A DNA stretch of 20,602 nt from a virus: positions 1-20,602 of IMG/VR virus record IMGVR_UViG_3300043409_001629; one strand, written 5' to 3'. The notes under the pieces were generated by a model, which saw only the letters and a list, made by a program, of their open reading frames with translations, was not told where the DNA came from and made no database searches. This document shows, one piece after another, positions 1 through 19,578 of the stretch. Numbering within the stretch: the stretch's first letter is position 1; each line of letters starts with the position of its first letter. Made by a program: the position numbers and the translations under genes.

Positions 1-829
1 CCTGGAGTCTATCGCTGTAACGTACACCCATCTTCATTGCCAACTCTGCTACTCTACGATTGTTCAGACTATATACACTTTCAACTCCACCCACAGGCAT
101 CAAGTAAACTGGACCTTTAAATCCTGCGGCACGATATGATTCTGTAGCATATGCGGCTTCTTCAGCATCTGCCTCTGTTTCTACAACAAATTTTAAATAA
201 GTATATCCAACAGATTCGTAATCACATACAATCTCAGGACAAATAGATTCTTCTAAATTCTCACCACTAACACTGAGTTTGGGACTCACACTAAATGTAA
301 TTTCTCTATCAAGATGCTGGTTAGCACTACGCCATTGATCCAAATATTCTTTAAACTTTGGTGTTAGCTTTTGAGTACCATTGGTTTCAAATGTAATCTC
401 TTTTAGTTCATTCATACTGGAATGTTCCAATAAGTCTGGGTAAGCACGTTGCCACCCTAGCAAAGGTTCACCACCAGTAATAACAAGATGCTCATCTTGC
501 CAAGTTTTGTTTGGTAGCAATTCCATAATACGTTCTGCGATAGCATCTGTGGTTAGCATTGGGCTAAGGTGTTTAAACTCTGGATGCCAACTAGCATAAC
601 TATCACAACCTGTGCTGACTAACGGTAATTCATTATATGTTTTGTATAGATTAAATCCATTAAGTTCTACAATGCGTTCTGCTTCTGGGCTTTTCTCGCC
701 GCGTGGCATACCAAATCCAGCACACGTAAAATTGCAACCAAATGTACGTAAGAATACACTGGGCACTCCCATATATCGGCCTTCTCCCTGAATACTATAA
801 AACAACTCTGCAATTTTAATTTTACTCAT
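1..829 (-). CDS. queE: 7-carboxy-7-deazaguanine synthase QueE, C-terminus off the window
   Basis: Radical SAM enzyme that converts 6-carboxytetrahydropterin to 7-carboxy-7-deazaguanine (CDG). I translated it by hand; 276 codons are open to the window edge, so the C-terminus is missing. The N-terminus SIQGEGRYMGVPS is the typical QueE start. The 4Fe-4S cysteines appear as C32 and C36 in GCNFTCAGFGMP, with the likely third ligand C75 in STGCDSYASW after a long insertion. The SAM-binding ITGGEP follows near residue 110, then FETNGT and FSVSPKLS, both typical of QueE. The ATG overlaps the stop of the upstream gene as ATGA, so translation is probably coupled. It is the last gene seen in the queD transcription unit. 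The family call is firm; the third cysteine is inferred. Confidence 0.93.
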   Translation of the reverse strand, partial: MSKIKIAELFYSIQGEGRYMGVPSVFLRTFGCNFTCAGFGMPRGEKSPEAERIVELNGFNLYKTYNELPLVSTGCDSYASWHPEFKHLSPMLTTDAIAERIMELLPNKTWQDEHLVITGGEPLLGWQRAYPDLLEHSSMNELKEITFETNGTQKLTPKFKEYLDQWRSANQHLDREITFSVSPKLSVSGENLEESICPEIVCDYESVGYTYLKFVVETEADAEEAAYATESYRAAGFKGPVYLMPVGGVESVYSLNNRRVAELAMKMGVRYSDRLQ

Positions 830-1149: not shown

Positions 1150-1358
1150 TTTAATAATCCTATAACGTAAATTAATCCGCAAAATATGTTCAATGTCCAC
1201 AAACTGGGTTGACGCCATATAACACCAACCCAGGCCCACAATATACATCCTGTAAGGAATAATAACTTATTCAGTGGTATGATGTCAAGTGCTGTGGTGA
1301 TAGTGGCCGCCACAATTACTGCGTGGGCGGCCCATTTGAGTAAGAAATCTTTATTCAA
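1146..1358 (-). CDS. Small hydrophobic membrane protein, about 70 residues
   Basis: Predicted inner-membrane protein with two or three hydrophobic stretches: AAHAVIVAATITTALDIIPL, LLFLTGCILWAWVGVIW and LNIFCGLIYVIGLL. The start is uncertain. The open frame reaches a GTG at 1412, which would overlap queD by about 60 bases. A TTG at 1358 overlaps the queD stop by only 8 bases, has AGGGAAG upstream, and gives MNKDFLLKWAAHA, which resembles small membrane proteins I recall from marine phages. The 3' end overlaps the next gene as ATGA. Function unknown; it is translated between queD and queE. Confidence 0.7.
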   Translation of the reverse strand: MNKDFLLKWAAHAVIVAATITTALDIIPLNKLLFLTGCILWAWVGVIWRQPSLWTLNIFCGLIYVIGLLK

Positions 1359-1827
1359 ACTCTCGATCTTCCCTGTGACCAACACGCATAGCCATATTGT
1401 TATCGGTTTCACGTACTTCTACACGGCAACACCAAATACGATCTGCTTCGGCTCTGCCATAATCAGGCAGGAATATAGTGTTGATATATTCGTAAAGAAA
1501 GTCTGATAATCCTTCACATCCAGTTTTTTCAACCTCTGTGATCTTGGCTAATCCCAGTTTACCTAAGTTTATTAATGCATCACGTTGGGGGTCGTCTTGT
1601 GCTACCAATAATGTATGATCAAACCAATCTTCTAGTTTATCTTTAAGGGGCTTAAGGCCACCAAAGTCCATACACCAATTACGTGCATCTAGCGTATCAC
1701 ATTCAAACTCAAAGTGAAATGAAAGTGCATAACCATGTATATGATGACAATGACTGTCTGCTCTCCATTGTCTATATGCAACCGGACCTATTTGACGATA
1801 GGTTTTAGTACTGATATATTTTGCCAT
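1351..1827 (-). CDS. queD: 6-carboxytetrahydropterin synthase-like protein, QueD/PTPS family
   Basis: Converts 7,8-dihydroneopterin triphosphate, the FolE product, toward 6-carboxytetrahydropterin, the QueE substrate. The 158-residue protein has the family features in order: nucleophile C27 in SHCHHIHGY, the FDH pair (WFDHTLL) near residue 70, and the substrate-binding Glu in GCEGLSDF. The zinc site is atypical: the usual CxxxHGH reads CHHIHGY and the usual first His (AHRL in Escherichia coli) reads AYRQW, so H26 or H28 may serve instead. The ATG at 1827 has a strong AGGAGA ribosome site. It is the first gene of a unit with its own promoter and a late-type box upstream. QueD is more likely than eukaryotic-type PTPS because queE and folE are close. 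Confidence 0.88.
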   Translation of the reverse strand: MAKYISTKTYRQIGPVAYRQWRADSHCHHIHGYALSFHFEFECDTLDARNWCMDFGGLKPLKDKLEDWFDHTLLVAQDDPQRDALINLGKLGLAKITEVEKTGCEGLSDFLYEYINTIFLPDYGRAEADRIWCCRVEVRETDNNMAMRVGHREDREFE

Positions 1828-1921: not shown

Positions 1922-2800
1922 CTATAACATATCTAATAGTTGCTGTCTACTAAAACTAGCATGTATAAATTTTTTATTTCGAGCAAATCTCTTAGTAATT
2001 TCGCCGTAGACTTTGTTCTTTCTCCCCAACGCATCGTTAATATAATAAAAAGCTGAAAATGTTTTTGATCTAAATTGCAAGCCATACAACGTTGACTTCG
2101 AACTTTGACTGTTTTTGTTAACATCAATATCAGTAATTATGGCCTTAAAAATTTCAGGGGTGAACGTGAAAAATGCTCCTGGGTGACTATCACCATACTC
2201 TAAATTTAAATAAAACTCATGATCAGTAATCTCAAACACATCGCCCATAGGTTCACTGAAACGATCTGAGTTATGACCCGAATCTCCATATCCTGTTAAT
2301 ACATTGGCAGTAGGATCTAACAACAGTTTTACTATAATGTTAGGTATTATCGACTCATCAATTGGTATTTTAAGTACGGTAGCATTTTCAATTATTTGTA
2401 TTACTAAGTCCTCTATAACAAATTTAGTATCTGCTGTTCTAATGCTACTTGTAAAGTCAAAAACTACTGGAGTTAATTTATGCTCATCACAAAATTTAAA
2501 AGCATACCAACTCTCGTGGTTATTTCGCGTTGATAGTATAACCGGAACGAAGGGAATCCGGTTGCGTAGTAAAACTACTGCCACAAACTCACTATCTAAC
2601 CCTCCACTAAGACATAAATGCAAGTTCGTATATTTGTCGGCTATTAATTTGGCTGTGTAATCAGCGGCTGAATTAAAATCTAAATTTAATACTGGAGCCT
2701 TAATATCAAACTTTACTGCAAACGGGTCAGTAATATTATTTTTAACCGACCCTGCCTCGAGATTGGTATGTAACCAGTGTTGGTGTCCTATTTTAAGCAT
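1922..2800 (-). CDS. PP-loop ATPase, asparagine synthase-like (PPase-C)
   Basis: N-type ATP pyrophosphatase domain protein, 292 residues. The PP-loop is CLSGGLDSEF, with S65 to S70 contacting ATP phosphates. Such enzymes adenylate a carboxylate or carbonyl and then attach nitrogen or sulfur. No glutaminase domain (no N-terminal catalytic Cys) and no QueC-type zinc cysteine cluster is present. The start at 2800 is set by homology: MLKIGHQHWL matches MLSLGHNHWL of PPase-B, and the ATG overlaps the preceding stop by 8 bases; the longer reading to 2866 is rejected. The conserved HPGAFFTFTPEIFKA block and QQLL-ML end are shared with PPase-B, its closest paralogue here. Substrate unknown. Confidence 0.8.
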   Translation of the reverse strand: MLKIGHQHWLHTNLEAGSVKNNITDPFAVKFDIKAPVLNLDFNSAADYTAKLIADKYTNLHLCLSGGLDSEFVAVVLLRNRIPFVPVILSTRNNHESWYAFKFCDEHKLTPVVFDFTSSIRTADTKFVIEDLVIQIIENATVLKIPIDESIIPNIIVKLLLDPTANVLTGYGDSGHNSDRFSEPMGDVFEITDHEFYLNLEYGDSHPGAFFTFTPEIFKAIITDIDVNKNSQSSKSTLYGLQFRSKTFSAFYYINDALGRKNKVYGEITKRFARNKKFIHASFSRQQLLDML

Positions 2801-3260
2801 TTTTTGCAGTTCCAAAAACTTTATCCCATAATATAACAAATGGACCAAAGTTTTTTGTTGTATCATTTAAATGATGATGCAAGTGCCACTTACCAGCAGA
2901 TAACCACGGATACCATGAGAACGTAGGATTGTGTTCTGTTTGTTCCTGTACTGTTGCCGAGTAGACGTAATGAAATACTGCTATCCACCATTGCCCAGTT
3001 ATTAAACAAAAAACCACTGTTGGTATAACTTCAGTAAACCACCAATCTAAAGTACTCATCCAATTGTCATTAAACAATAACAAATTATTCCAACTCCACC
3101 GCGGTGGAGAGTGTGTTAATATATAGTGATGATGGTGCTGATGTACTTTCTTTATTCCTGGTATATGATGGGCCAATCGGTGTGCCCAGTATAGCCAGCA
3201 AGTCCATAGTAGGAAATAAAGTACAACATGAATTACCAAAAGTAACATAGATTCTATCAT
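2793..3260 (-). CDS. Fatty acid hydroxylase/sterol desaturase superfamily membrane protein
   Basis: Integral-membrane diiron oxygenase family, about 155 residues, shorter than most members. The histidine clusters are visible in order: HRLAHH (H27, H31, H32), HQHHHH (40-45), H97 and H110 in HNP, and KWHLHHH (126-130), followed by the family-like NFGPFVILWDKVFGT end. Hydrophobic segments cover residues 5-25 and about 78-97. Members insert oxygen or a double bond into lipid-like or terpenoid substrates; the substrate here cannot be read. It sits between PPase-B and PPase-C, 7 bases after one and overlapping the other, so it belongs to the same unit. No clear ribosome site precedes the ATG at 3260; the ATG at 3248 is an alternative start. 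Confidence 0.85.
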   Translation of the reverse strand: MIESMLLLVIHVVLYFLLWTCWLYWAHRLAHHIPGIKKVHQHHHHYILTHSPPRWSWNNLLLFNDNWMSTLDWWFTEVIPTVVFCLITGQWWIAVFHYVYSATVQEQTEHNPTFSWYPWLSAGKWHLHHHLNDTTKNFGPFVILWDKVFGTAKNA

Positions 3261-3267
3261 ATATAAA

Positions 3268-4131
3268 CTATAACATAGTTAATAATTGTTGTCTATCCAA
3301 GGTAACATATTTTAAATGTTCTTCTCGAGAAAACTTTTTGTTAAGGTCATTTATATGCCCGTGTTGATACCCCATAATATCTTTAGTATATTCAAAAACA
3401 GAATAGCTCTTGGCACGTTCTGATAAACTATACAATTTAGATTTGGCCAATTGGCTGTTCAAGGCACAATCGATGTCAGTAATCATTGCCTTAAAAATTT
3501 CAGGAGTGAACGTAAAAAATGCACCAGGATGCCGATCACCATATTCCAGATTTAAATAACAATCACGATCCCAAATTTCAAACACATCGCCTATGGGGTC
3601 ATCAAAATGATCTGACATACGTAATGGTTCCCCACAGCCAGTTATTACGGTAGCAGACGAATCTGATAATAACTTAGACACAACATTGGATATTAATGCT
3701 TCCGTAACCGGCAACTTTATTGCGGCGGCGATTTGATATGCTTTGATCAATAACTCAGTGACATTATTCGCTGATCCAGTTTTACTAGAGAAATCAAATA
3801 CTACTGGAGTCAGATTGTTAAATTTACAAAATTTAAAAGCATACCAAATCTCAGCATTGTTGGGGGTCAATATTATAACTGGAGTAAAAGGTATCTTGTT
3901 GCGACATAACACTGCGGCGACATACTCACTATCTAACCCTCCACTAAGACACAAGTGTAAATTGTTGTAATTATTTGCTATTATAGTAGCGGTATAATCG
4001 GCCGCAGAATTGAAACTCATCTCCATGACATGGTCGATATTAAATTCCGCAGTAAACGGTGCAGATAGATTGCTATCTGATCCAGCAATCAAATTGGTTG
4101 TTAGCCAATGGTTATGCCCTAGACTAAGCAT
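3268..4131 (-). CDS. PP-loop ATPase, asparagine synthase-like (PPase-B)
   Basis: 287-residue N-type ATP pyrophosphatase protein; PP-loop CLSGGLDSEY with S63 to S68. It is clearly homologous to PPase-C along its whole length (shared FNSAADYTA, IPFTPVI, WYAFKFC, LTPVVFDF, HPGAFFTFTPEIF, RQQLL-ML) and more distantly to PPase-A. No QueC zinc site and no amidotransferase domain. The ATG lies inside the 96-bp direct repeat, and the first 24 bases overlap the end of the fusion remnant in another frame. A truncated copy of this start survives at 5114, marking a duplication joint. The likely reaction is adenylation of an acid or carbonyl; substrate unknown. Confidence 0.8.
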   Translation of the reverse strand: MLSLGHNHWLTTNLIAGSDSNLSAPFTAEFNIDHVMEMSFNSAADYTATIIANNYNNLHLCLSGGLDSEYVAAVLCRNKIPFTPVIILTPNNAEIWYAFKFCKFNNLTPVVFDFSSKTGSANNVTELLIKAYQIAAAIKLPVTEALISNVVSKLLSDSSATVITGCGEPLRMSDHFDDPIGDVFEIWDRDCYLNLEYGDRHPGAFFTFTPEIFKAMITDIDCALNSQLAKSKLYSLSERAKSYSVFEYTKDIMGYQHGHINDLNKKFSREEHLKYVTLDRQQLLTML

Positions 4132-4202
4132 TCTTGATTTACCGTAGTAGTTAACGTAATTTTTTCTTTATTAAAGGCGTGGGACAATAATTGCGTTTTG
4201 TT
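4107..4202. repeat. 96-bp exact direct repeat, copy 1
   Basis: Identical, by eye, to 5090-5185 over all 96 bases. This copy holds the 3' end of a PPase-A gene (in the fusion remnant) and the first bases of PPase-B. It diverges immediately outside both edges. Confidence 0.93.
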
Positions 4203-4250
4203 ACACCCAAAGCAATCCAGTAATAAATGATATCCCCAGAATATAGTCAT
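4119..4250 (-). pseudogene. In-frame remnant: SpeD N-terminus fused to PPase-A C-terminus
   Basis: A 43-residue ORF not longer than a small peptide. Residues 1-16 (MTIFWGYHLLLDCFGC) match the first 16 of the SpeD at 5955-6311, with differences. Residues 17-43 (NKTQLLSHAFN... to ECLV) are identical to the last 27 of PPase-A. The ATG overlaps the Rieske stop as ATGA, exactly as intact speD overlaps the other Rieske gene. Compared with the intact unit about 1,078 bases are missing, covering most of speD and nearly all of PPase-A, yet the frame stays open. It is most simply a deletion scar. Whether the peptide is made is unknown; it lacks the SpeD Ser, His and Cys and the PP-loop, so enzymatic activity is not expected. 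Confidence 0.85.
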
Positions 4251-4300
4251 TTAATTAAATTCTCTTGGTACCAGTTTCCAAAATGCACACAATGATCTTC
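4224..4300. repeat. 77-bp near-identical direct repeat, copy 1
   Basis: Matches 6285-6361 with two differences by eye (A/G at 4243; C/T near 4286). It spans the start of the SpeD-derived remnant and the 3' end of the Rieske gene, encoding CVHFGNWYQENLIK in both copies. Confidence 0.9.
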
Positions 4301-5086
4301 TAATCTATTTTGCGAGTTCTTCAATGGGAAATATGGTCCTTTTTGTGCCTCAATAGCAGTAACATCTTCATGAAACACATCTTCTAATTTTTCAAACTCA
4401 GCTCTGCAGGATTGCGAGGTATTGGGATCATAGTAGAATTGTGTAGCCCAAGTAAATCCAAATTCATTATTTACATCCTTGGGCACAGTATAATTAATTG
4501 ACAAGCACCCTTTACTCCATTCAACAAAAGTATACGGATAGATAAACAACCACCACCCAGTGCTACATGTTTGAATAATCCAGCCATCACCAGAATCCAT
4601 ATTAACTTGCTCTAAATTTTCAAGTGATGACAACTCTGGATGAATAACGTCGTCGCCAGTCCTAACATGTAAAAGATCTGCTTGTATCTCCATCATCCAC
4701 AACCAGCTACCACTACTGGATCCTTGAGTGCAATGTGAATAGGTTAACTCTTTTTCTTTTACCAAATCATCAACCCAGTGATGCGATGGCTCAACTAAAT
4801 CTTTTAGAATCAATCCAGATTTTCCAATATCAGCTTCACCACACTTAAGTTTTTTGTTATTGTTAAGTGGTTTCCCATTTATATCCCATTCATATCCATG
4901 ATATTTACATACAACGTTCTGTATATTCCTTCCAATTTCTGACAGCGGATACATTCTGTGCGGACAGAATCGGTGATGTAGGTCAATATGATCTCCTGCA
5001 GAATGTAAAATGTATTCTGGTGTTACTAAGTTGCCAGCATTCAATGCCGCAACATGAGCCAAAACCTTAGGAGATCTTTTAAACAT
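4247..5086 (-). CDS. Rieske non-heme iron oxygenase, second copy
   Basis: 279-residue Rieske oxygenase of the ring-hydroxylating alpha-subunit type. The 2Fe-2S site is C41-P-H43 and C60-x-x-H63, 16 residues between the pairs. The mononuclear iron site is D137 with H140 and H149 (ADLLHV...VIH), and HEDVTAIEAQKG near residue 240 supplies the usual C-terminal acidic ligand. All metal ligands are present, so it should be active given a reductase, which is not in the window. It aligns end to end with the Rieske protein at 6308-7144, at roughly half identity, but the last residues are identical at protein level. The ATG at 5086 lies three bases beyond the 96-bp repeat, and the stop overlaps the fusion remnant. 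Substrate unknown. Confidence 0.88.
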   Translation of the reverse strand: MFKRSPKVLAHVAALNAGNLVTPEYILHSAGDHIDLHHRFCPHRMYPLSEIGRNIQNVVCKYHGYEWDINGKPLNNNKKLKCGEADIGKSGLILKDLVEPSHHWVDDLVKEKELTYSHCTQGSSSGSWLWMMEIQADLLHVRTGDDVIHPELSSLENLEQVNMDSGDGWIIQTCSTGWWLFIYPYTFVEWSKGCLSINYTVPKDVNNEFGFTWATQFYYDPNTSQSCRAEFEKLEDVFHEDVTAIEAQKGPYFPLKNSQNRLEDHCVHFGNWYQENLIK

Positions 5087-5114
5087 ACAAATGGTTATGC
5101 CCTAGACTAAGCAT
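5079..5114 (-). pseudogene. Truncated PPase-B start, 11-residue relic
   Basis: Reads MLSLGHNHLYV then stop. The first eight residues and their bases are those of the PPase-B start; homology stops four bases before the Rieske ATG at 5086. It overlaps the Rieske gene in another frame. It marks the joint of a tandem duplication rather than a working gene. Confidence 0.75.
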
Positions 5115-5185
5115 TCTTGATTTACCGTAGTAGTTAACGTAATTTTTTCTTTATTAAAGGCGTGGGACAATAATTGCGTTTTGTT
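5090..5185. repeat. 96-bp exact direct repeat, copy 2
   Basis: Identical to 4107-4202. Here it holds the genuine 3' end of PPase-A and the first bases of a PPase-B gene, which then breaks off into the second Rieske gene. Confidence 0.93.
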
Positions 5186-5950
5186 TCCCATGTAAAAATT
5201 ATAATGTATATGTTTTTTCTGCGTTTCAAAAAATTTATCTTTTATTGTTTGATTTAAAAATATAGTTTGCATTGGAGTACATTTTGGTCTAGGCGAAACG
5301 TTATAATATTCAGCTATAGCTATCTGTGCTGGTTTACTATAGTCCATGCTACTTGCTAGATTAATGAATAACTCTGGTGTAAAACTTATAAATTGAACCG
5401 AATGGTCATGCTGATTAAAATCAAAGCTATTAAAATCCAGCTCAATACTAATATTTTCCATTAGCTTATCTTTACTGGCTGATATTCTAGAAAAGGGTTG
5501 GGCATCACCAGTAATTGTTGTTGCCTCAGGTTCCAAGAGCGACAATATTAAAAACTCAAATACTGACATAAATGACGATCCTGGAAATTTAGCAACCTCT
5601 CTTGGCAATAGGTTAACCATAATGTCTGGTGTTAATTTAAAAACCTTTGGTGTTATTTTATTTCGATAACACCAATAATAAGCGTACCAAACCTCTGCTC
5701 CATTGTAATTGTAATCTACTATTACTGGAGTAAATGGTACATTTCTTTCTAGCAAACAGTTAGCCACAAATTCACTGTCAATACCACCGCTAAGACATAC
5801 ATATAGGTTAGAATAATTCTCAATTAATTTATTAACAGTATGATCAATAGCATCTTGCTTAGACATAACAGTTAAGTTTGAAAAATTCATAGTACAGGTC
5901 GGTAATTTAGTTGACCAGTCTATGTTAATCCAATTATTTAATCCTGACAT
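5102..5950 (-). CDS. PP-loop ATPase, asparagine synthase-like (PPase-A)
   Basis: 282-residue N-type ATP pyrophosphatase protein, PP-loop CLSGGIDSEF with S54 to S59. It shares the PFTPVIV, VWYAYYWC and FISFTPELF blocks with PPase-B and -C, but is clearly more distant, with a shorter N-terminus and a different C-terminal third. No glutaminase domain and no QueC-type zinc cysteines. The ATG at 5950 has AGGA about 8 bases upstream, 4 bases after the speD stop. Its last 27 codons recur exactly in the fusion remnant at 4119-4250. The family's usual chemistry is adenylation followed by amidation or thiolation; the substrate is unknown. Confidence 0.8.
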   Translation of the reverse strand: MSGLNNWINIDWSTKLPTCTMNFSNLTVMSKQDAIDHTVNKLIENYSNLYVCLSGGIDSEFVANCLLERNVPFTPVIVDYNYNGAEVWYAYYWCYRNKITPKVFKLTPDIMVNLLPREVAKFPGSSFMSVFEFLILSLLEPEATTITGDAQPFSRISASKDKLMENISIELDFNSFDFNQHDHSVQFISFTPELFINLASSMDYSKPAQIAIAEYYNVSPRPKCTPMQTIFLNQTIKDKFFETQKKHIHYNFYMGNKTQLLSHAFNKEKITLTTTVNQECLV

Positions 5951-5954
5951 ATAG

Positions 5955-6311
5955 TTATCCTGCCTGTCTAGTCAGGAAGTTGACCTTTACTTGTTTGGGG
6001 GCGAAGTATTTGTGAACAACATTTTGCGCTACTGTTAAGTCAAACTCCTTACAAGAAAATATATCAAAATAAGCAGTGCCATCTAGTTCCATAAAATGAC
6101 CACAAATATTACTAGTTGTTATTAATTGCATTAAACTATAACCTTGCTTTGGATCACCAGGGAGAAGATATTCAATAATAGGTTCTCCATGAGCCGTCAT
6201 CTCAATTTGGGTTACTAAATCTTTAACAAATTGATATATATTGTCTCGACTATCTATTTTAGAACAGCCAGCACAATCTAACATTAAATGATATCCCCAG
6301 AATGTAGTCAT
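5955..6311 (-). CDS. speD: S-adenosylmethionine decarboxylase-like protein, SpeD family
   Basis: 118-residue protein of the small prokaryotic AdoMet decarboxylase family, which makes decarboxylated SAM as aminopropyl donor for spermidine. The MTTFWGYHLMLDC start and NFLTRQ end resemble SpeD proteins I recall from marine cyanophages. By alignment with the Thermotoga enzyme, the pyruvoyl-forming Ser is S67 (TTSNIC), the processing His is H72 (GHF) and the catalytic Cys is C87 (DIFSC). The residue before the Ser is Thr instead of Glu, so self-cleavage may differ. The ATG overlaps the Rieske stop as ATGA, and PPase-A follows after 4 bases. It may serve polyamine synthesis or donate aminopropyl groups within this cluster; the second is speculation. 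Confidence 0.85.
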   Translation of the reverse strand: MTTFWGYHLMLDCAGCSKIDSRDNIYQFVKDLVTQIEMTAHGEPIIEYLLPGDPKQGYSLMQLITTSNICGHFMELDGTAYFDIFSCKEFDLTVAQNVVHKYFAPKQVKVNFLTRQAG

Positions 6312-6361
6312 TTAATTAAATTCTCTTGGTACCAGTTTCCAAAATGTACACAATGATCTTC
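6285..6361. repeat. 77-bp near-identical direct repeat, copy 2
   Basis: Partner of 4224-4300, spanning the start of intact speD and the 3' end of the first Rieske gene. The two copies differ at two positions by eye. Confidence 0.9.
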
Positions 6362-7144
6362 GTATCTATTCATAGCCTTAGCTAAAGGAAAGTAATCGCC
6401 TTTCTGTAACTCAGCGGTAGCTATATCTTCGTTAAAAACAGTTTCTAATGTTTCAAAAATGGCTCGTCTATCGGGTGTTACAGTTGGATCATAATAAAAT
6501 TGACTAATCCAATCAAACCCGTACTCGCTATTTTTACTATGTGGAGTTACTGTATTAACCATAACCATACCTGAATTGCCGTATTCAACAAACGAAAATG
6601 GAAATATGTATAGCCACCACCCATTGGGATGATTTTGTAAAATCCAACCATCACCTTGATCTAATTTAATATCTTCTAGATTAATTTGCTGTGATAAAAA
6701 TGGGTGGATGCCGCCTTTATACACATGGAGCAAATCTGCTTCAGCATCCATTAACCATAACCAACTTCCTTTACTCGATCCAGTAAAGCTATGACTATAT
6801 TTTAGATTTGTTTCTTTGGTAAGATCAGTTACCCAACGGTGGTTAACTTCATCAAAATCTTTAAAAATTAAACCAGATTCTCCTACTGTAGCAGTACCGC
6901 AGGATATTTTTTTATTGTTGTTTGTGGGTGTACCATCAGCAGTCCAATGTAACCCGTGAAACTTACAGGTTATTTCAGTAGTAAGTGTTCCTGGAGTTGC
7001 CAGAGGATACATTCTATGAGGACAAAATCTACGGAATAAGTCAACTCCTGTCTCGGTTTTGTGCAGTATATATTCAGATATAACAAAGTTTTCCGTAGTT
7101 ACAGCGGATACATGAGCTAACACCCTAGGAAATTTTTTAAACAT
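6308..7144 (-). CDS. Rieske non-heme iron oxygenase, first copy
   Basis: 278-residue Rieske oxygenase. The 2Fe-2S ligands are C41-P-H43 and C60-x-x-H63; the catalytic iron ligands are D137, H140 and H147 (ADLLHV...GGIH) and the acid in FNEDIATAELQKG near D240. This is a complete oxygenase alpha-type subunit; it needs a ferredoxin or reductase from the host or elsewhere in the phage. I chose the ATG at 7144 because MFKKFPRVLAHV aligns with MFKRSPKVLAHV of the second copy. The longer reading from a TTG at 7204 would overlap the MazG-like gene. There is no ribosome site, but a TATAAATA box ends 5 bases before the ATG. The stop overlaps speD as ATGA. Confidence 0.88.
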   Translation of the reverse strand: MFKKFPRVLAHVSAVTTENFVISEYILHKTETGVDLFRRFCPHRMYPLATPGTLTTEITCKFHGLHWTADGTPTNNNKKISCGTATVGESGLIFKDFDEVNHRWVTDLTKETNLKYSHSFTGSSKGSWLWLMDAEADLLHVYKGGIHPFLSQQINLEDIKLDQGDGWILQNHPNGWWLYIFPFSFVEYGNSGMVMVNTVTPHSKNSEYGFDWISQFYYDPTVTPDRRAIFETLETVFNEDIATAELQKGDYFPLAKAMNRYEDHCVHFGNWYQENLIK

Positions 7145-7980: not shown

Positions 7981-8724
7981 TTACCTCGGAGCAAAGTCTT
8001 GTTGTAGTTTAATATTGTCCATAAATTCTTTCTTAGTTCCCATATCGTTGTGAAATGCACCTTTTAATACTGTTGTTTGTGTAAGACTACTGTGTGCCAT
8101 AATACCACGATTCTCACAGCAACCATGCGTAGCTTGGATGTAAACACCCACATTCTCTGAGTCTGTGGCCTTCATTATTTCTCGTGCAATGTCATTGGTA
8201 AGTTCTTCCTGTAACGTACCACGGCGAGCACACCACTGTGCTATTCTGGTATATTTGCTGAGACCAATTAATTTATTAGCGGCAATGATACCAATATAAG
8301 CAATACCAGATACAGGCTGATGATGATGACTACACATGCTTCGTAACTCACTACGCACAACAAGCATGCCTTCATATCTATCTTCTGAATCATTTGGAAA
8401 AGCAGTAGCACCTGGAATTGGATCATATCTACCAGCCATGACTTCGTTAAAATACATCTTTGCTAATCGTCTGGCAGTACCACGACTATTGGGATCGTTC
8501 TCACGATCAATAAGTAATGTATCTAACACTCGTTCAAAGGCTACAGAAGCTTCTGCAATTAGTTTTTCTTTATCGCCTTCGTGCAAATAATCGCTAATGT
8601 TATCTCCCGCCCAAAAACGTTTCTTGTCACGTTTCATTTTAAAGCGGAGAGCGTCTGCTAGGTTACATACTTCATAGTCCTGGTCATAGCTCAAATCGTT
8701 TACTTGTGCAAATTCAGTAGTCAT
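7981..8724 (-). CDS. folE: GTP cyclohydrolase I, FolE
   Basis: Converts GTP to 7,8-dihydroneopterin triphosphate, the entry step for folate and for 7-deazaguanines. The catalytic zinc ligands are seen as C131 and H134 in MCSHHHQP and C202 in THGCCENRG. Also present are the TARRLAKMY block, GLSKYTRIAQ and QEELTNDIA, all family hallmarks. At 247 residues it is a little longer than the 222 of the Escherichia coli enzyme, with the extra at the N-terminus. The ATG overlaps the preceding stop as TAATG. With queD and queE in the same window it most likely supplies CDG rather than folate. Confidence 0.95.
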   Translation of the reverse strand: MTTEFAQVNDLSYDQDYEVCNLADALRFKMKRDKKRFWAGDNISDYLHEGDKEKLIAEASVAFERVLDTLLIDRENDPNSRGTARRLAKMYFNEVMAGRYDPIPGATAFPNDSEDRYEGMLVVRSELRSMCSHHHQPVSGIAYIGIIAANKLIGLSKYTRIAQWCARRGTLQEELTNDIAREIMKATDSENVGVYIQATHGCCENRGIMAHSSLTQTTVLKGAFHNDMGTKKEFMDNIKLQQDFAPR

Positions 8725-8961: not shown

Positions 8962-10032
8962 CTAACTTAAATTTAATATACTGTCAAACATTACATTAGC
9001 ATTTAGATAATCAGTTTTTAAAATTTGTATTTGCTCTTGCATTGCTTTGGCATAGGCTTGGGGGTTATTGACACGCTCGGCAATGAATCCCAATAAATTA
9101 ACTTTATTCTTATGGTACGAGTCAATACTACTAGTCCATTCAGTAGGATACTTAAACTCTGGCAAATACATTTCTTTATAACTGCACCTGTCTGGTACAA
9201 TAGGGATAGCACCAGCCAAACAACCTTCCATCATGCTAATACCCAAATTCTCATGTAGACTACAACTGAATACCGCCGCGGCACTACCTAATGTTTGATA
9301 GTATTGTTCTTTATTGAGGTTAGCTTTTTGTGTGATTACTACATCAAAAACTAAATCATTTTTAAGATCTTCAATAATCTCTGGTTGCTTGTCGGCATTA
9401 TATCTGTGTGGCCAGATCAACATACGTTCTTTGGGATTATCAAAATACTGCCCGCAATGATCAATCACGCTGATATGTGGTTGTCCACTTACTACTGCAC
9501 GACCAGTATCTTGATACGAAATATCTAGGTTACGCAAGAACATGGAACGGTGGAAATTGGTAGCATAATAGTTCTTATCGCAACTGTAATACCAACTACG
9601 TTCTGCATGAAACGGCCAAGGCTTTTGCATCTTCATACCCAATATGTCACTGGGGTCGTATGCACCAGCATGCCATATACTATGTATCTCTACTGGTATA
9701 TCCAACAAATCACTTTGATATTTAATTGCGGTAATAGCAAAATTCCAAGCATCTGTTACTAGGAATTTGTCACCGGGTTTTACTTCACCACGTTGAAACA
9801 TCTGACTAATAAATTCAACTTGACTGGCTTTATATGCATTGGTAGTGGAAAAGTCTAGAAAAGCACCAGCAGTTGTTCCACCGGTGCTTTCCCTGCCAGC
9901 AACATTAACAATAGATAAGTTAATGTTCTTTTCCACTGCCCGCCGTTTAATTAGAACCGGTATATTGTCAAACCACTGTTTAGTATATCGTTGATCAATT
10001 GGTTCGATGGGAACAATAAATAGTGTAGGCAT
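8962..10032 (-). CDS. GT-B fold glycosyltransferase, GT4-like
   Basis: 356-residue protein with a Rossmann-like C-terminal half carrying the nucleotide-sugar motif SLHENLGISMMEGCLAG, the E-x7-E pattern at E261 and E269, followed by GAIPIVPD, as in retaining GT4-type enzymes. The N-terminal half has a less conserved fold with VTDAWNF and SIWHAGAY segments. No membrane segment or signal peptide. It could glycosylate phage DNA bases, as T-even phages do, or a surface glycan or protein. Its place between a DpdA-like enzyme and folE leans toward DNA modification, but nothing in the sequence proves it. The ATG overlaps the preceding small gene as TAATG. Confidence 0.8.
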   Translation of the reverse strand: MPTLFIVPIEPIDQRYTKQWFDNIPVLIKRRAVEKNINLSIVNVAGRESTGGTTAGAFLDFSTTNAYKASQVEFISQMFQRGEVKPGDKFLVTDAWNFAITAIKYQSDLLDIPVEIHSIWHAGAYDPSDILGMKMQKPWPFHAERSWYYSCDKNYYATNFHRSMFLRNLDISYQDTGRAVVSGQPHISVIDHCGQYFDNPKERMLIWPHRYNADKQPEIIEDLKNDLVFDVVITQKANLNKEQYYQTLGSAAAVFSCSLHENLGISMMEGCLAGAIPIVPDRCSYKEMYLPEFKYPTEWTSSIDSYHKNKVNLLGFIAERVNNPQAYAKAMQEQIQILKTDYLNANVMFDSILNLS

Positions 10033-10220
10033 TATCTGATTTTCTGTTGTGTCTTTAGATAGTTTTTCCAGTTTTGACTACGCATATTGTTTACATCAAC
10101 AGGGTTAAACGGCAACAACTCCCACCTACAATGATTATGATATGCTTCAATCGCTTCGAATAGTTTTGTAACCTCAGGCTTCATTACAAGGTATTTTTTA
10201 ATCCAAGCTGGTTGCGACAT
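10032..10220 (-). CDS. Unknown 62-residue basic protein
   Basis: Not recognised. A good ribosome site (AGGAAG) precedes the ATG at 10220, and the stop overlaps the glycosyltransferase ATG as TAATG, so it is a credible gene. It is basic and tryptophan-rich (PAWIKKYL, HNHCRWELLPF, SQNWKNYLK), apparently mostly helical. No known motif. Confidence 0.72.
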   Translation of the reverse strand: MSQPAWIKKYLVMKPEVTKLFEAIEAYHNHCRWELLPFNPVDVNNMRSQNWKNYLKTQQKIR

Positions 10221-10240
10221 TTTACTTCCTTTGTGAAAAA

Positions 10241-10729
10241 TTAATAGGATTTAAATTTTGGTACATTAGTGTCTGGGATATTGTATTCCACATAACATCC
10301 GTTTTCACCATCTTCACTTACTTCAACCCAAACATCTCTATTTGGATATCGGTCAGTGATCTTTGAATAGAGCTGATCAGCTAGCATTTCACAGCTTTGA
10401 TTATTCAGCTCTAAAATTCCTTCCGGTAGACCGGAATTATTACTGGTGTACAAGGACTGGCACCAGCGTTTGAACAAGATGAATTCAATGTCTCGGTCTT
10501 CATGAAAGACCTGAATCCACACCCGGAAATGGAACATATGACGATGAGGGTAACCCAAAAATTTAACTTCTGCAAGAGCAGGATCCTCCAATGCTTGTGG
10601 GTACTTATGCATACCCTCAAGAGCAAAGGTTACCCAAATCATCTTCTTTGCTGATTCCCTAATCTGAGAGGACTTTTCAAGTAATGCGACTTTACGTTGA
10701 TCCATAATTGATATAATGTTATCGTTCAT
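10241..10729 (-). CDS. T-fold protein resembling 6-pyruvoyltetrahydropterin synthase/QueD
   Basis: 162-residue protein with a pattern like the PTPS/QueD family: a beta strand with a His (FALEGMH), a paired-His motif PHRHMFHFRVWIQV in place of HGH, a SCEMLAD segment where QueD has its substrate Glu, and a final VEVSEDGENGC strand-turn. The DH pair and the nucleophile Cys of QueD are not evident, so it is probably not a second QueD. I recall similar phage proteins of unknown function. It starts 52 bases after dpdA behind its own promoter. The ATG at 10729 has AGG upstream; the ATG at 10705 is less likely. A role in pterin or deazaguanine chemistry is inference. Confidence 0.6.
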   Translation of the reverse strand: MNDNIISIMDQRKVALLEKSSQIRESAKKMIWVTFALEGMHKYPQALEDPALAEVKFLGYPHRHMFHFRVWIQVFHEDRDIEFILFKRWCQSLYTSNNSGLPEGILELNNQSCEMLADQLYSKITDRYPNRDVWVEVSEDGENGCYVEYNIPDTNVPKFKSY

Positions 10730-10755
10730 TTTATTTTACCTGCAAGTGATGTGTA

Positions 10756-10784
10756 AGTATATAGTGAATAGGCGAAACTATCAA
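10756..10784 (-). promoter_or_regulatory. Sigma70-type promoter downstream of dpdA
   Basis: Minus strand TTGATA (10784-10779), a 17-base spacer, and TATACT (10761-10756): five of six matches in each box at ideal spacing. The -35 overlaps the dpdA stop. It would drive the T-fold gene and those after it, through folE. Confidence 0.7.
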
Positions 10785-12388
10785 CTGTTTGTTTCTTCAA
10801 TCTGTTCTAGTTTTTCTAATTTAACCAAATCTAGACCATCTTCGTTTGTTTCTGGTGCAGTAACCGTAGTAAATTCAAAATGCTCACCAAACTTAGTTGA
10901 AGCATTAATTGCCTTCTTGCCTATAAATCCATTGGCACTGCTGCCTATTACTTTAGTACACCATTTGTCCAAGAAAGGATCTGTTGCCAATTCCCAAGCC
11001 GTGGCATAACTAGGTGCGCTGAAAATTGCGTCAACCAATTCACGGAAATATACGCGATCATGTTCTTCCTTTACCAACGACTTTGGAATAGTTCCACTGG
11101 CATATTTTTCATTGCCATCTTGAACTGATTTAATATGAGCATGAACATTATGACCCATTAATATAGCATAACTAAAACTATCCCAAGATGTTCTGCCTTC
11201 TTTCTTGATCTTATTTAGATCGCCCGGAGCATACCAGCACACATCACTAATTTTAGTACGTTGCATAATCGGGCTGTCAATAAACGTCTTGGCAATTTTG
11301 CCGTTTATCTTTTCAGTCAACATGACATCTCTAAACAATCGGTTATCATGTGCATACTTCTTGTCATCCACGGCTTTGGTCATATGATATCCCCAATTGC
11401 CGCGATTCTCTAACCGGTTCTCATCATACACTTGTCCATTGGCAGTAGCCAGGAATGGTGATGCACAGTCAAAACTAATGGTAAAGTTGGGATTATGATT
11501 TTTACGTATCGCTCTCTGAATGTCTGTGAACATCATTGCCCACTCCAGTTTACTGGTACCCAGATAGTGTACCCAGTCCTGTTTGCCAGTCTCCAACAAG
11601 CCGTCATAAATTAATGTAACAAGACGTTTAAGTACCAAGTGAGCATCACATTTGTTTTGTGATCCCATGGCCCAACCGTTGAAGTGATCATTGGGATAAA
11701 CTTTTGGATCACAGAAATGTTTCATCTCATTATACCATTGATCCGCTTCGGTGTGACTATCACCCTGCAATACTGTTAGGAATTTGCAATTGCCACGACG
11801 ATTTTTAAGCCAATATTCAAAGTTATATTTGGTGGCTTCAACTGCTTCTTCATAACTAGAAATCTTTGTTGCGGCAACACCAGACGGAGTTCTAGATACC
11901 CAACCTGGCACATCTAATGTCATGCCATAGTCCATGTAACTTTCCATCCAGTCTAATACTTGAGTTCTTTTTTTATGTGCTTTGGCACAGCCACTACCGG
12001 CACGCCAGTCACCTTCCCACACACCCTTGCCAATCTGGAACCCTCCGCTATCACCCAATATAAAACTACCAGGGTCACGGTTACGAATCATATCTTCTTT
12101 GGGATCAAACTTAGCAGTATCCAAGTTGGCATGCCCTGCACTATACAAGCCCCACTTATAAGGAAAGTAGGCTTCTTTGGGATTAAGAAAATTTAAGCCC
12201 TCAATACCATTCTCAAACCCTGTAGGTATACGTTCATCCTCAATGTGTTTAGAATGGCGCTGTTTGCCTACATATCCGCTATAAAAACCACTGATTGCTG
12301 GCAGAAAGATTGCATAATCCTTCTGTTTTGCTGTTAAATCGTCAATGGTTGGCTCAGGCACAGCGGGATTGTGTTCAGTTTGGCTCAT
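10781..12388 (-). CDS. dpdA: DpdA-like DNA/tRNA guanine transglycosylase
   Basis: 535-residue protein of the TGT superfamily, which swaps guanine for a 7-deazaguanine base. Visible in order: GDSGGFQ with D113, TLDVPGW (158-163), VLQGDS (207-211), GWAMGSQ (238-244), HYLGTS (274-279) and SFDCASP with the presumed nucleophile D307. These match the TGT series DSGGFQ, QGG, GxxIGG, H-MG and D-D. The zinc-binding CxCxxC plus His of bacterial tRNA TGTs is absent, as expected of DpdA proteins acting on DNA. The ATG overlaps the sliding-clamp stop as TAATG. With FolE, QueD and QueE nearby, insertion of a 7-deazaguanine into phage DNA is the most likely role; action on tRNA is the alternative. Confidence 0.87.
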   Translation of the reverse strand: MSQTEHNPAVPEPTIDDLTAKQKDYAIFLPAISGFYSGYVGKQRHSKHIEDERIPTGFENGIEGLNFLNPKEAYFPYKWGLYSAGHANLDTAKFDPKEDMIRNRDPGSFILGDSGGFQIGKGVWEGDWRAGSGCAKAHKKRTQVLDWMESYMDYGMTLDVPGWVSRTPSGVAATKISSYEEAVEATKYNFEYWLKNRRGNCKFLTVLQGDSHTEADQWYNEMKHFCDPKVYPNDHFNGWAMGSQNKCDAHLVLKRLVTLIYDGLLETGKQDWVHYLGTSKLEWAMMFTDIQRAIRKNHNPNFTISFDCASPFLATANGQVYDENRLENRGNWGYHMTKAVDDKKYAHDNRLFRDVMLTEKINGKIAKTFIDSPIMQRTKISDVCWYAPGDLNKIKKEGRTSWDSFSYAILMGHNVHAHIKSVQDGNEKYASGTIPKSLVKEEHDRVYFRELVDAIFSAPSYATAWELATDPFLDKWCTKVIGSSANGFIGKKAINASTKFGEHFEFTTVTAPETNEDGLDLVKLEKLEQIEETNS

Positions 12389-19035: not shown

Positions 19036-19043
19036 TATTTATT
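19036..19043 (-). promoter_or_regulatory. Late-promoter-like AATAAATA box abutting the SGNH start
   Basis: Full match to NATAAATA, overlapping the stop of the PIG-L gene and followed by 5 bases and the ATG, the same geometry as at 7150-7157. Confidence 0.4.
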
Positions 19044-19578
19044 TCAAGATAAACAAGTGTTTTAAATAGTTTGGAATTGTATATCCGTTGGTATGTGTAT
19101 GCTTGTGAAAACTGGATATTACTTCACGATGTAACGGCAACTCATCCAGATCATATAACCTTGGTGGCAACGTAATTTTAATATCGGCAACATATAATGA
19201 AGCAAAGGTAACTAGGTTATTTTTGTCGTGTAGACATTGGTTAACAAATTTGTGATGTAAATGACCATATTCACCATCACTGTTATGCGAAAGTATTATG
19301 TCTTGTCCCTCAACACAATCTTCAATTGCCTGTTGCGCTATTAGTACATCAAAACTTATAGCATCGTTCTCTATATCATTCCAATCGTCTTTAAATCCAA
19401 GAAATTTAGTAGAGATGTTTCTTTTTTGCCAAAAGCGAGATATTTCTTCGCCACGTGGTGAGTCATCAGTATACGTTAGGTAACATATAGTCCAATTTAG
19501 ATTCTGAAACTGATTTATTAACCCATATCCAAATATTATACAATCATCAGGATGTGCCACCACACATATAGCGTTCAT
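19039..19578 (-). CDS. PIG-L/LmbE family deacetylase
   Basis: 179-residue member of the GlcNAc de-N-acetylase family, zinc enzymes that remove acetyl from N-acetylated sugars. The signature AHPDD is at residues 8-12 (H9, D11 and D12 at the metal and catalytic site) and the second block SHNSDGEYGHLHH at 97-109 gives the remaining His ligands. Slightly shorter than most members but with both motifs intact. The substrate may be a host or phage glycan or an amino sugar. It overlaps the previous gene as ATGA and is followed by the SGNH hydrolase after 8 bases. Confidence 0.87.
   Translation of the reverse strand: MNAICVVAHPDDCIIFGYGLINQFQNLNWTICYLTYTDDSPRGEEISRFWQKRNISTKFLGFKDDWNDIENDAISFDVLIAQQAIEDCVEGQDIILSHNSDGEYGHLHHKFVNQCLHDKNNLVTFASLYVADIKITLPPRLYDLDELPLHREVISSFHKHTHTNGYTIPNYLKHLFILK

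Follow-up and report, generated by a model that had tools for sequence, protein, structure and literature searches.

Genes for a Rieske oxygenase and for a stand-alone PP-loop protein resembling asparagine synthetase form a real, previously undescribed gene pair that recurs in about 30 other phages. In the window (the whole stretch of viral DNA that was analyzed, 20,602 nt), this pair is part of a seven-gene cassette within a 7-deazaguanine (Que) operon; the source is a large uncultured phage, and the enzyme set inside this operon is swappable. We tentatively interpret the cassette as a gene set that tailors a 7-deazaguanine DNA base, with ATP-dependent amide ligases at its center.

Organization of the cassette

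The seven genes are all open, lie on the minus strand and are tightly spaced. They encode a Rieske oxygenase, R1 (6308..7144; complete, 278 aa); a SpeD homologue (5955..6311), which overlaps R1 by 4 nt; a predicted AsnB-type PP-loop ligase, PP3 (5102..5950); a second Rieske oxygenase, R2 (4247..5086), 56% identical to R1; a second ligase, PP2 (3268..4131); a small membrane diiron protein of the fatty acid hydroxylase superfamily, FAH (2793..3260); and a third ligase, PP1 (1922..2800), which overlaps FAH by 8 nt and lies directly upstream of QueD. The first-pass annotation had recognized seven enzyme genes in one tight unit, and both the spacing and the clustering of the Rieske and ligase genes (see below) uphold this description.

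FolE, PRTase and MazG genes precede the unit and QueD and QueE follow it in one operon; FolE, QueD, and QueE are likewise on the minus strand. FolE (GTP cyclohydrolase I, 7981..8724) was detected with PF01227 (7.4e-39), QueD (6-carboxytetrahydropterin synthase, 1351..1827) with PF01242 (1.6e-16) and phrog_2389 (6.1e-40), and QueE (7-carboxy-7-deazaguanine [CDG] synthase, 2..829), which is truncated by the record end, with phrog_2076 (4.2e-50). The product of the gene at 10781..12388 (minus strand) is a DpdA-like DNA-guanine transglycosylase. Its TGT motifs DSGGFQ, LQG, GWAMG, and FDCxxP are invariant or nearly so in eight relatives, and hhalign aligned it with E. coli Tgt (E value 0.0016) over the QG / GG.A.G / FDC..P region; because a search of the DpdA profile against PDB sequences gave no match, its assignment is based on the motifs and this alignment. 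The same FolE-QueD-QueE-DpdA operon is found in phages L001 and L073. Phage 7-deazaguanine DNA modification involves DpdA, FolE, QueD, QueE, and QueC, and 7-amido-7-deazaguanine is among the bases known from phage DNA (PMC6884629). Judged by gene content, the window appears to encode such a system, with DpdA accompanied by FolE, QueD, and QueE. As in the known system, these genes share one operon, but the window has no QueC and instead carries predicted AsnB-type ligases beside QueD, together with oxygenase and decarboxylase tailoring genes.

The near-identical sister phage L001 has exactly 3.9 kb fewer, corresponding to the segment R1-SpeD-PP3-R2-PP2 (3224..7140), and the two sequences are collinear on both sides of this gap, with 94.9% and 85.3% DNA identity. 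The cassette was gained or lost recently. Within it, R2 is flanked by two copies of a 96-bp perfect direct repeat (4107..4202 and 5090..5185).

Rieske oxygenases

Both Rieske genes matched PF00355 (1.4e-06 and, for R1, 2.9e-06). No substitution occurs in 33 Rieske relatives at the [2Fe-2S] ligands C41/H43/C60/H63 (CxH...CxxH), at the iron ligands H140/H147/D240, or at the bridging D137. The AlphaFold model of R1 (pLDDT 94.7) had carnitine monooxygenase CntA as its top PDB match (Z 22.1, rmsd 3.1, 268 residues), and on this model R1 and R2 are assigned to the Rieske non-heme iron oxygenases (RHO alpha subunit) with a full catalytic-domain fold, in agreement with the earlier call of two complete Rieske oxygenases. 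CntA, stachydrine demethylase, and TPADO have the same RHO alpha fold, CxH-CxxH cluster, 2-His-1-Asp iron site, and bridging Asp. In contrast to these enzymes, R1 is viral in distribution and short (278 aa versus approximately 310-450 residues in the matched PDB chains), is only 16-17% identical to them, and has no Fer2 reductase or ferredoxin beside it: PF00111 gave no match in 22 contigs, many of which are fragments, and a host partner is possible. A BFVD fold search with R1 yielded no homologue from a named phage, its two weak matches (TM near 0.5) being unnamed.

PP-loop ligases

The PP proteins matched PF00733 (Asn_synthase) weakly, under the cut-off (0.0051 for PP3), and their fold assignment was settled by the AlphaFold model of PP2 (pLDDT 94.2). 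Its structural matches were human ASNS (Z 14.8), beta-lactam synthetase (14.3), and AsnB (14.1), with a clear gap between these synthetases and the next group, LarE/NadE (Z near 9.5). Residues S63, G64, G65, S68, and K241 are invariant across 76 PPs, and the P-loop reads SGGLDSE in PP1 and SGGIDSE in PP3. By modeled fold, SGGxDS P-loop, and catalytic Lys, the PPs are predicted to be amide ligases of the AsnB/beta-lactam-synthetase type. Asparagine, beta-lactam, and carbapenam synthetases share the synthetase-domain fold (Z 13-15) and the invariant P-loop and Lys, but they carry an N-terminal Ntn glutaminase(-like) domain. The PPs, at 280-295 aa, have the size of the synthetase domain alone, and neither the models nor the fold matches revealed a glutaminase domain; three asparagine-synthase-type PP-loop ATPases without an amidotransferase domain are what the first-pass annotation had proposed. 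The oxygenase partners differ as well, being a Rieske or FAH protein for the PPs and a 2OG oxygenase in the compared synthetase systems.

PP1 and PP2 are 55% identical, whereas PP3 is 35% identical to PP2 and forms its own clade in the tree; the nearest relative of PP2 is the single PP of L001 (77%). The start of PP1 was moved to an internal Met, guided by the alignment with PP2. PP relatives were found with a Que-specific alignment subset (A8), the full alignment (A7) being too divergent for searching. Identity of the PPs with QueC was rejected: the zinc motif C(x)8CxxCxxC is absent in all 76 PPs, and PF06508 stayed under the cut-off, aligning with the P-loop region alone. QueC was not among the PP structural matches listed, which is no evidence by itself.

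FAH and SpeD

FAH matched PF04116 over the cut-off (5.6e-13) and has the His boxes HRLAHH, HQHHHH, and WHLHHH, which supports the earlier description of a fatty-acid-hydroxylase-like diiron membrane protein. A homology search with FAH gave the sister phage as the sole match; FAH relatives lie beside PP or QueD in the Que operons of L001, L073, L080, and L085.

The SpeD assignment stands at the level of family (PF02675, 2.6e-18), although not at that of aminopropyl chemistry. The motif Q..TS..HF..Y..FSC is present in 5/5 SpeDs linked to R or PP. Gln, Thr, Phe, and Tyr around the cleavage Ser, His, and Cys are described as diagnostic of SpeDC ornithine decarboxylases (PMC10407285); their exact positions were inferred from the text of that report. 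On these residues, SpeD is probably a pyruvoyl L-ornithine decarboxylase (SpeDC type) rather than an AdoMet decarboxylase. Production of decarboxylated AdoMet is disfavored, as the linked SpeDs bear all four residues as that text gives them, so that of the oxidized, amidated, or aminopropylated product suggested earlier the aminopropylated option is unlikely. Freshwater-phage SpeDCs are similar in size (approximately 120 aa), self-cleavage Ser, catalytic His and Cys, and, as far as that text allows, the four diagnostic residues (PMC9992855, PMC10407285). Unlike them, the window SpeD, with its predicted activity, is linked to R and PP, and linkage of ODC-type SpeD to R or PP also occurs in L026, L038, and L108.

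Distribution of the Rieske-PP pair

PP is the immediate neighbor of R in 28 of the 33 non-redundant phage R genes, against 7.3 expected (0/10,000 shuffles). Co-occurrence of the two families, which the first-pass annotation had named as a check, is thus strongly confirmed, and the homologues are not scattered. Most pairs lie outside Que operons, in variable regions, among genes for FA desaturases (35 genes, 15 loci), TctC-type binding proteins (15 loci), and radical SAM, 2OG-oxygenase-like, GNAT, and glycosyltransferase-like proteins. One 149-kb genome (G027) has the pair and no match to DpdA, QueE, or QueD. Within Que operons, R is found next to PP or close to it in no fewer than five arrangements (window, L008/L045, L012, L031, and L087), and three PPs stand in tandem in the window, L008, L031, and L045. 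This DpdA is encoded by six of the nine R-bearing contigs of at least 130 kb, and one more carries FolE/QueD/QueE at its terminus.

When named phages were searched with the R1, PP2, and L083 PP sequences, no match was returned. Paride and PA5oct have the same DpdA and QueE, and the stretch read from them contains neither PP nor R. Among PHROGs, neither R nor the Asn-type PPs had an informative match, and the pair is missing from current phage family libraries. A single pattern scan of 84,980 bacterial and archaeal species returned 72 matches and no relatives, which is not proof of absence. The earlier remark that no phage pathway with this enzyme set was known agrees with the literature, where we found no described pathway with exactly this set.

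The PP-QueD link

In 20/21 loci that have both genes (approximately 20 independent operons), the distance from QueD to an upstream PP is at most one gene. These operons also hold QueE, along with FolE if the contig extends that far, and DpdA on longer contigs. The QueD-adjacent PPs fall into at least three deep clades, yet they are clustered in the tree (6 changes versus 19.9 when shuffled) and have label-specific residues in common in the 76-PP alignment. No QueC over the cut-off (TIGR00364) was detected in 26 PP-bearing Que contigs, among them contigs of 180 and 178 kb; R-bearing Que phages of 240, 321, and 354 kb likewise yielded no bona fide QueC. A 7-deazaguanine step, suggested earlier, is therefore supported for PP but not for the Rieske genes, which are mostly outside such operons.

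In an unbiased set of DpdA-lineage loci, PP was present in 1/80; PP was therefore rejected as a conserved core gene of this lineage and does not belong to the core of the modification system. In several related phages the Que operon lacks PP and an R-PP pair is located elsewhere in the genome, and some relatives have neither QueC nor PP.

Possible function of the cassette

FolE, QueD, and QueE are expected from known enzymology to produce CDG, which has a free carboxylate. With no QueC to convert CDG to preQ0, PP1 could adenylate this carboxylate on its P-loop and couple the activated CDG to an amine; in this phage the amine would be putrescine, made from ornithine by SpeD. PP2 and PP3 might catalyze additional amidations or accept different partners, and R1 and R2, fed by a host reductase, would oxidize the attached group together with the diiron FAH. 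DpdA would then insert the base into phage DNA in place of guanine; alternatively, exchange may come first and tailoring take place on DNA. The substrate and product that we infer in this way would lead to a bulky, charged, hypermodified guanine resistant to host nucleases.

The closest precedent for the ligase step is phage CmoY, an asparagine-synthetase homologue of Synechococcus phage S-B43 that couples glycine to the carboxylate of carboxymethylcytosine in DNA (PMC12783734). Like the PPs, CmoY is a stand-alone asparagine-synthetase-type ligase (271 aa), forming an amide on a base carboxylate. The two belong to the same P-loop superfamily but are only remotely related, their alignment being confined to the P-loop region; moreover, the proposed handle here is CDG, and the CmoA-CmoX-CmoY system lacks Rieske, ODC-type SpeD, and FAH partners. 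The CmoA/CmoX 5cxmC system itself was rejected as the pathway, as neither CmoA (TIGR00740) nor a C5-methyltransferase (PF00145) was detected in 37 R/PP contigs.

The tailoring interpretation is favored by the amide-synthetase fold of PP, its adjacency to QueD, the absence of QueC, and the CmoY precedent, as well as by the recurrence of R, FAH, and ODC-type SpeD with PP and of DpdA in the large R contigs. It is weakened by the location of most R-PP pairs outside Que operons, by G027, by the rarity of PP in DpdA-lineage loci and the Que operons without PP, by the usual action of the FAH family on lipids, and by the possibility that a host QueC finishes preQ0. Rather unlikely is a more specific version, in which DNA hypermodification couples CDG to putrescine or another amine through the AsnB-type ligase, the Rieske enzyme oxidizes the product, and R-PP is a general, exchangeable amide-plus-oxygenation unit acting on base carboxylates in large phages.

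It is possible, though doubtful, that the R-PP pair is mobile and serves to modify a small molecule, lipid, or surface glycan, with its two enzymes forming an acyl or amino amide and then oxygenating it; its place in the Que operon of this phage would then be incidental, the operon offering an insertion site. The neighborhoods of most pairs, the clean presence/absence of the 3.9-kb segment, and the perfect repeats around R2 agree with this, as does the fact that lipids are the usual substrates of known FAH-family enzymes. However, random insertion is disfavored because PP adjoins QueD so regularly across its clades, and no complete lipid or glycan pathway recurs in 30 R loci or in the roughly 25 loci with PP and QueD. 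Improbable is the replacement of QueC by PP1, which would make 7-amido-7-deazaguanine for DpdA from CDG and ammonia while R, SpeD, and FAH have separate roles. The missing QueC, the position of PP beside QueD, and the existence of this base in phage DNA argue for it; against it, no Ntn glutaminase domain or separate amidotransferase is seen in the operon, three tandem PPs exceed the need of one amidation, and a QueC substitute is not obligatory because some relatives lack both. Very improbable are loose auxiliary metabolic genes, with SpeD feeding host polyamine pools and Rieske and PP acting on host metabolites: in marine and freshwater phages, SpeD homologues often occur as stand-alone genes (PMC9992855), but the strict R-PP adjacency and repeated R-SpeD linkage argue for a joint product.

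If the tailoring interpretation is correct, carboxylate/amide-ligase chemistry, whose recognition in phage DNA modification dates only from December 2025 and concerns cytosine, would extend to the 7-deazaguanine pathway, where CDG offers a ready-made carboxylate, and oxygenases would join the toolbox. To our knowledge, there is no earlier case of a Rieske enzyme in DNA modification; this would be the first, and a new kind of DNA disguise. The large phages with the R-PP pair have DpdA and polymerase genes in common with the P. aeruginosa phages Paride and PA5oct.

Gene content and origin of the cassette

The 20.6-kb window comes from a virus record of IMG/VR, and all genes of interest in it lie on the minus strand. 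In the direction of transcription, a family-B DNA polymerase is followed by a DpdA-like (DNA-guanine) transglycosylase, a glycosyltransferase-like gene, FolE, a phosphoribosyltransferase, and MazG; then come R1-SpeD-PP3-R2-PP2-FAH-PP1, QueD, and QueE, where the record stops. The first-pass annotation had placed seven enzyme genes at 1922-7144 (two Rieske oxygenases, three PP-loop ATPases, FAH, and SpeD), and gene calls in the window agree with it in both genes and coordinates. Alignment to PP2 places the most likely start codon of PP1 at an internal Met (2800) rather than at 2866. The glycosyltransferase-like gene (8962-10032), which may glycosylate the modified base, is kept close downstream of DpdA across the DpdA lineage, Paride included. 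A PIG-L family deacetylase (19039-19578; PF02585, 3.5e-08) lies upstream of the polymerase region.

The sister phage L001 is collinear with the window (94.9% as far as the end of MazG, 85.3% from FAH onward) and lacks exactly the 3.9-kb segment R1-SpeD-PP3-R2-PP2, having FAH and one PP only. In the window, R2 is flanked by perfect 96-bp direct repeats (4107-4202 and 5090-5185), which points to very recent recombination; recombination between the copies would excise R2. FAH-PP is therefore a minimal unit, to which the cassette is an optional addition.

Protein identities

The top solved match of the predicted R1 structure (pLDDT 94.7) is CntA, a Rieske monooxygenase acting on carnitine (VIA Z 22.1, rmsd 3.1, 268 residues); NagG, TPADO, and stachydrine demethylase come next. 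The cluster and iron ligands do not vary across 33 relatives. For the PP2 model (pLDDT 94.2), Z is 14.8 against human ASNS, 14.3 against beta-lactam synthetase, 14.1 against AsnB, and 13.4 against carbapenam synthetase, and then falls to about 9.5 at LarE and NadE; as modeled, PP2 is an amide-forming synthetase domain without glutaminase. All 76 PPs compared share the same P-loop residues and one Lys, and the zinc motif of QueC is missing from every one of them. FAH is a small member of the fatty-acid-hydroxylase superfamily. The window SpeD retains the cleavage Ser and the catalytic His and Cys, and it shares with four other R- or PP-linked SpeDs the arrangement of Gln, Thr, Phe, and Tyr that is diagnostic of ornithine decarboxylases among SpeD homologues (PMC10407285); in phage phiN3, whose enzyme is a bona fide AdoMetDC, Asp stands where these proteins carry Thr. 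For SpeD homologues from freshwater phages (117-122 aa), ornithine decarboxylase activity has been demonstrated (PMC9992855).

The Rieske-PP pair

Relatives of R were found in 41 viral loci, and a pattern scan of 84,980 species of bacteria and archaea returned none. In non-redundant loci, PP is the direct neighbor of R for 28 of 33 R genes (7.3 in shuffles). The two genes are either co-directional, overlapping by 1-68 nt, or tail-to-tail on opposite strands, overlapping by 9-95 nt; because both arrangements occur, the pair is not just a single operon that has been conserved. The R proteins are highly similar to one another (mostly 46-82% identity to R1); most PPs are only 15-30% identical to PP2, and the PPs paired with R belong to many clades (the tree forces at least 11 label changes). 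Outside Que operons (FolE/QueD/QueE-type 7-deazaguanine operons), the neighbors of the pair differ, comprising fatty acid desaturases, TctC, radical SAM, GNAT, and 2OG-oxygenase-like genes, and therefore substrate classes may vary from phage to phage.

One viral locus has eight desaturase-family genes, mostly in tandem, around its R-PP pair (L016:2-5692 and 9767-11869), which is unusual in a phage. At L005:5010-5918 and 14 other loci, PP genes adjoin genes for solute-binding proteins of the TctC type that apparently have signal peptides; these may point to Burkholderiales-like hosts.

Association with 7-deazaguanine operons

Searches with PPs from Que operons identified about 25 further contigs whose operon includes QueE and has one PP upstream of QueD; the longer ones carry FolE and DpdA as well. 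PP adjoins QueD or stands one gene away in 20 of the 21 loci carrying both. QueD-adjacent PPs fall into at least three deep clades, yet they cluster by label on the tree and have label-specific residues in common. QueC was not detected above the cut-off in any of 26 PP-QueD contigs, nor was a bona fide QueC found in the Que phages that carry R (240, 321, and 354 kb). One PP-loop protein that resembles QueC and has a Cys-rich C terminus (G013:2067-2651; L046:1510-2100) is encoded beside tail-fibre genes, distant from any Que operon.

Some operons have extra genes between QueD and QueE, namely those for a Vut_1 (YhhQ-type) transporter, a B12-radical SAM enzyme, a methyltransferase, and GT2; thus, the operon is a site of varied tailoring. 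The Vut_1 gene, of the queuosine-precursor transporter type, adjoins QueD in L091 (9255-9881), L093, L101, and L083. The B12-binding radical SAM enzyme (L091:10703-12676, L095:10251-12233), with the accompanying GT2 and methyltransferase genes, is possibly another tailoring branch. An isocitrate lyase family protein (PF00463, 1e-105) is encoded inside a phage Que operon at L083:9701-10909.

The association has its limits. Among 80 loci of the DpdA lineage sampled without bias, most clusters are FolE-QueE with QueD not in view, PP is present in only one, and two others have a NadE-like PP-loop gene beside QueD; at L161:18410-19177 such a gene lies directly upstream of QueD, at the place of PP. 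In four R-bearing contigs (G004, G016, G019, and G031), the Que operon lacks PP, and R-PP is located elsewhere. Window-type DpdA is present in six of the nine R-bearing contigs of at least 130 kb, and FolE/QueD/QueE stand at the end of a seventh, G031; G013 (208 kb) has QueD and lacks DpdA of this type, and G027 (149 kb) has neither.

Proposed role of the cassette

The only obvious carboxylate handles in the window operon are 7-carboxy-7-deazaguanine (CDG) and the pterin product of QueD. An AsnB-type ligase beside QueD, the missing QueC, and a putative putrescine source (SpeD) next to R and PP suggest that PP would couple an amine to CDG as an amide, with oxygenation next. Electrons for R would be supplied by the host, since no Fer2 protein was found in 22 contigs, many of them fragments. 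We tentatively read the product as a DNA base, in keeping with the place of PP beside QueD; a non-DNA metabolite, which the varied neighbors of R-PP would fit, is only slightly less likely, and the PP-free Que operons speak against the DNA-base reading. The proposed coupling is analogous to that by CmoY, which couples glycine to carboxymethylcytosine (PMC12783734), but similarity to PP is restricted to the P-loop region; we rejected PP as a member of a CmoY system, CmoA and the C5-methyltransferase being absent from 37 R/PP contigs. In the literature, where known 7-deazaguanine derivatives were covered in part, we found no report of this gene set or of a Rieske protein in phage DNA modification.

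DpdA relatives in Pseudomonas jumbo phages

A homologue of the window DpdA, 37% identical and annotated as hypothetical, is encoded by Paride (OR805295, 94273-95895; L149:12001-13623), and others by PA5oct, Callisto, and MIJ3, jumbo Pseudomonas phages of the Arenbergviridae. The synteny in these phages is as in the window (polymerase-clamp-like-DpdA-GT-QueE), and the DpdA-QueE locus is apparently an unrecognized 7-deazaguanine DNA-modification operon.
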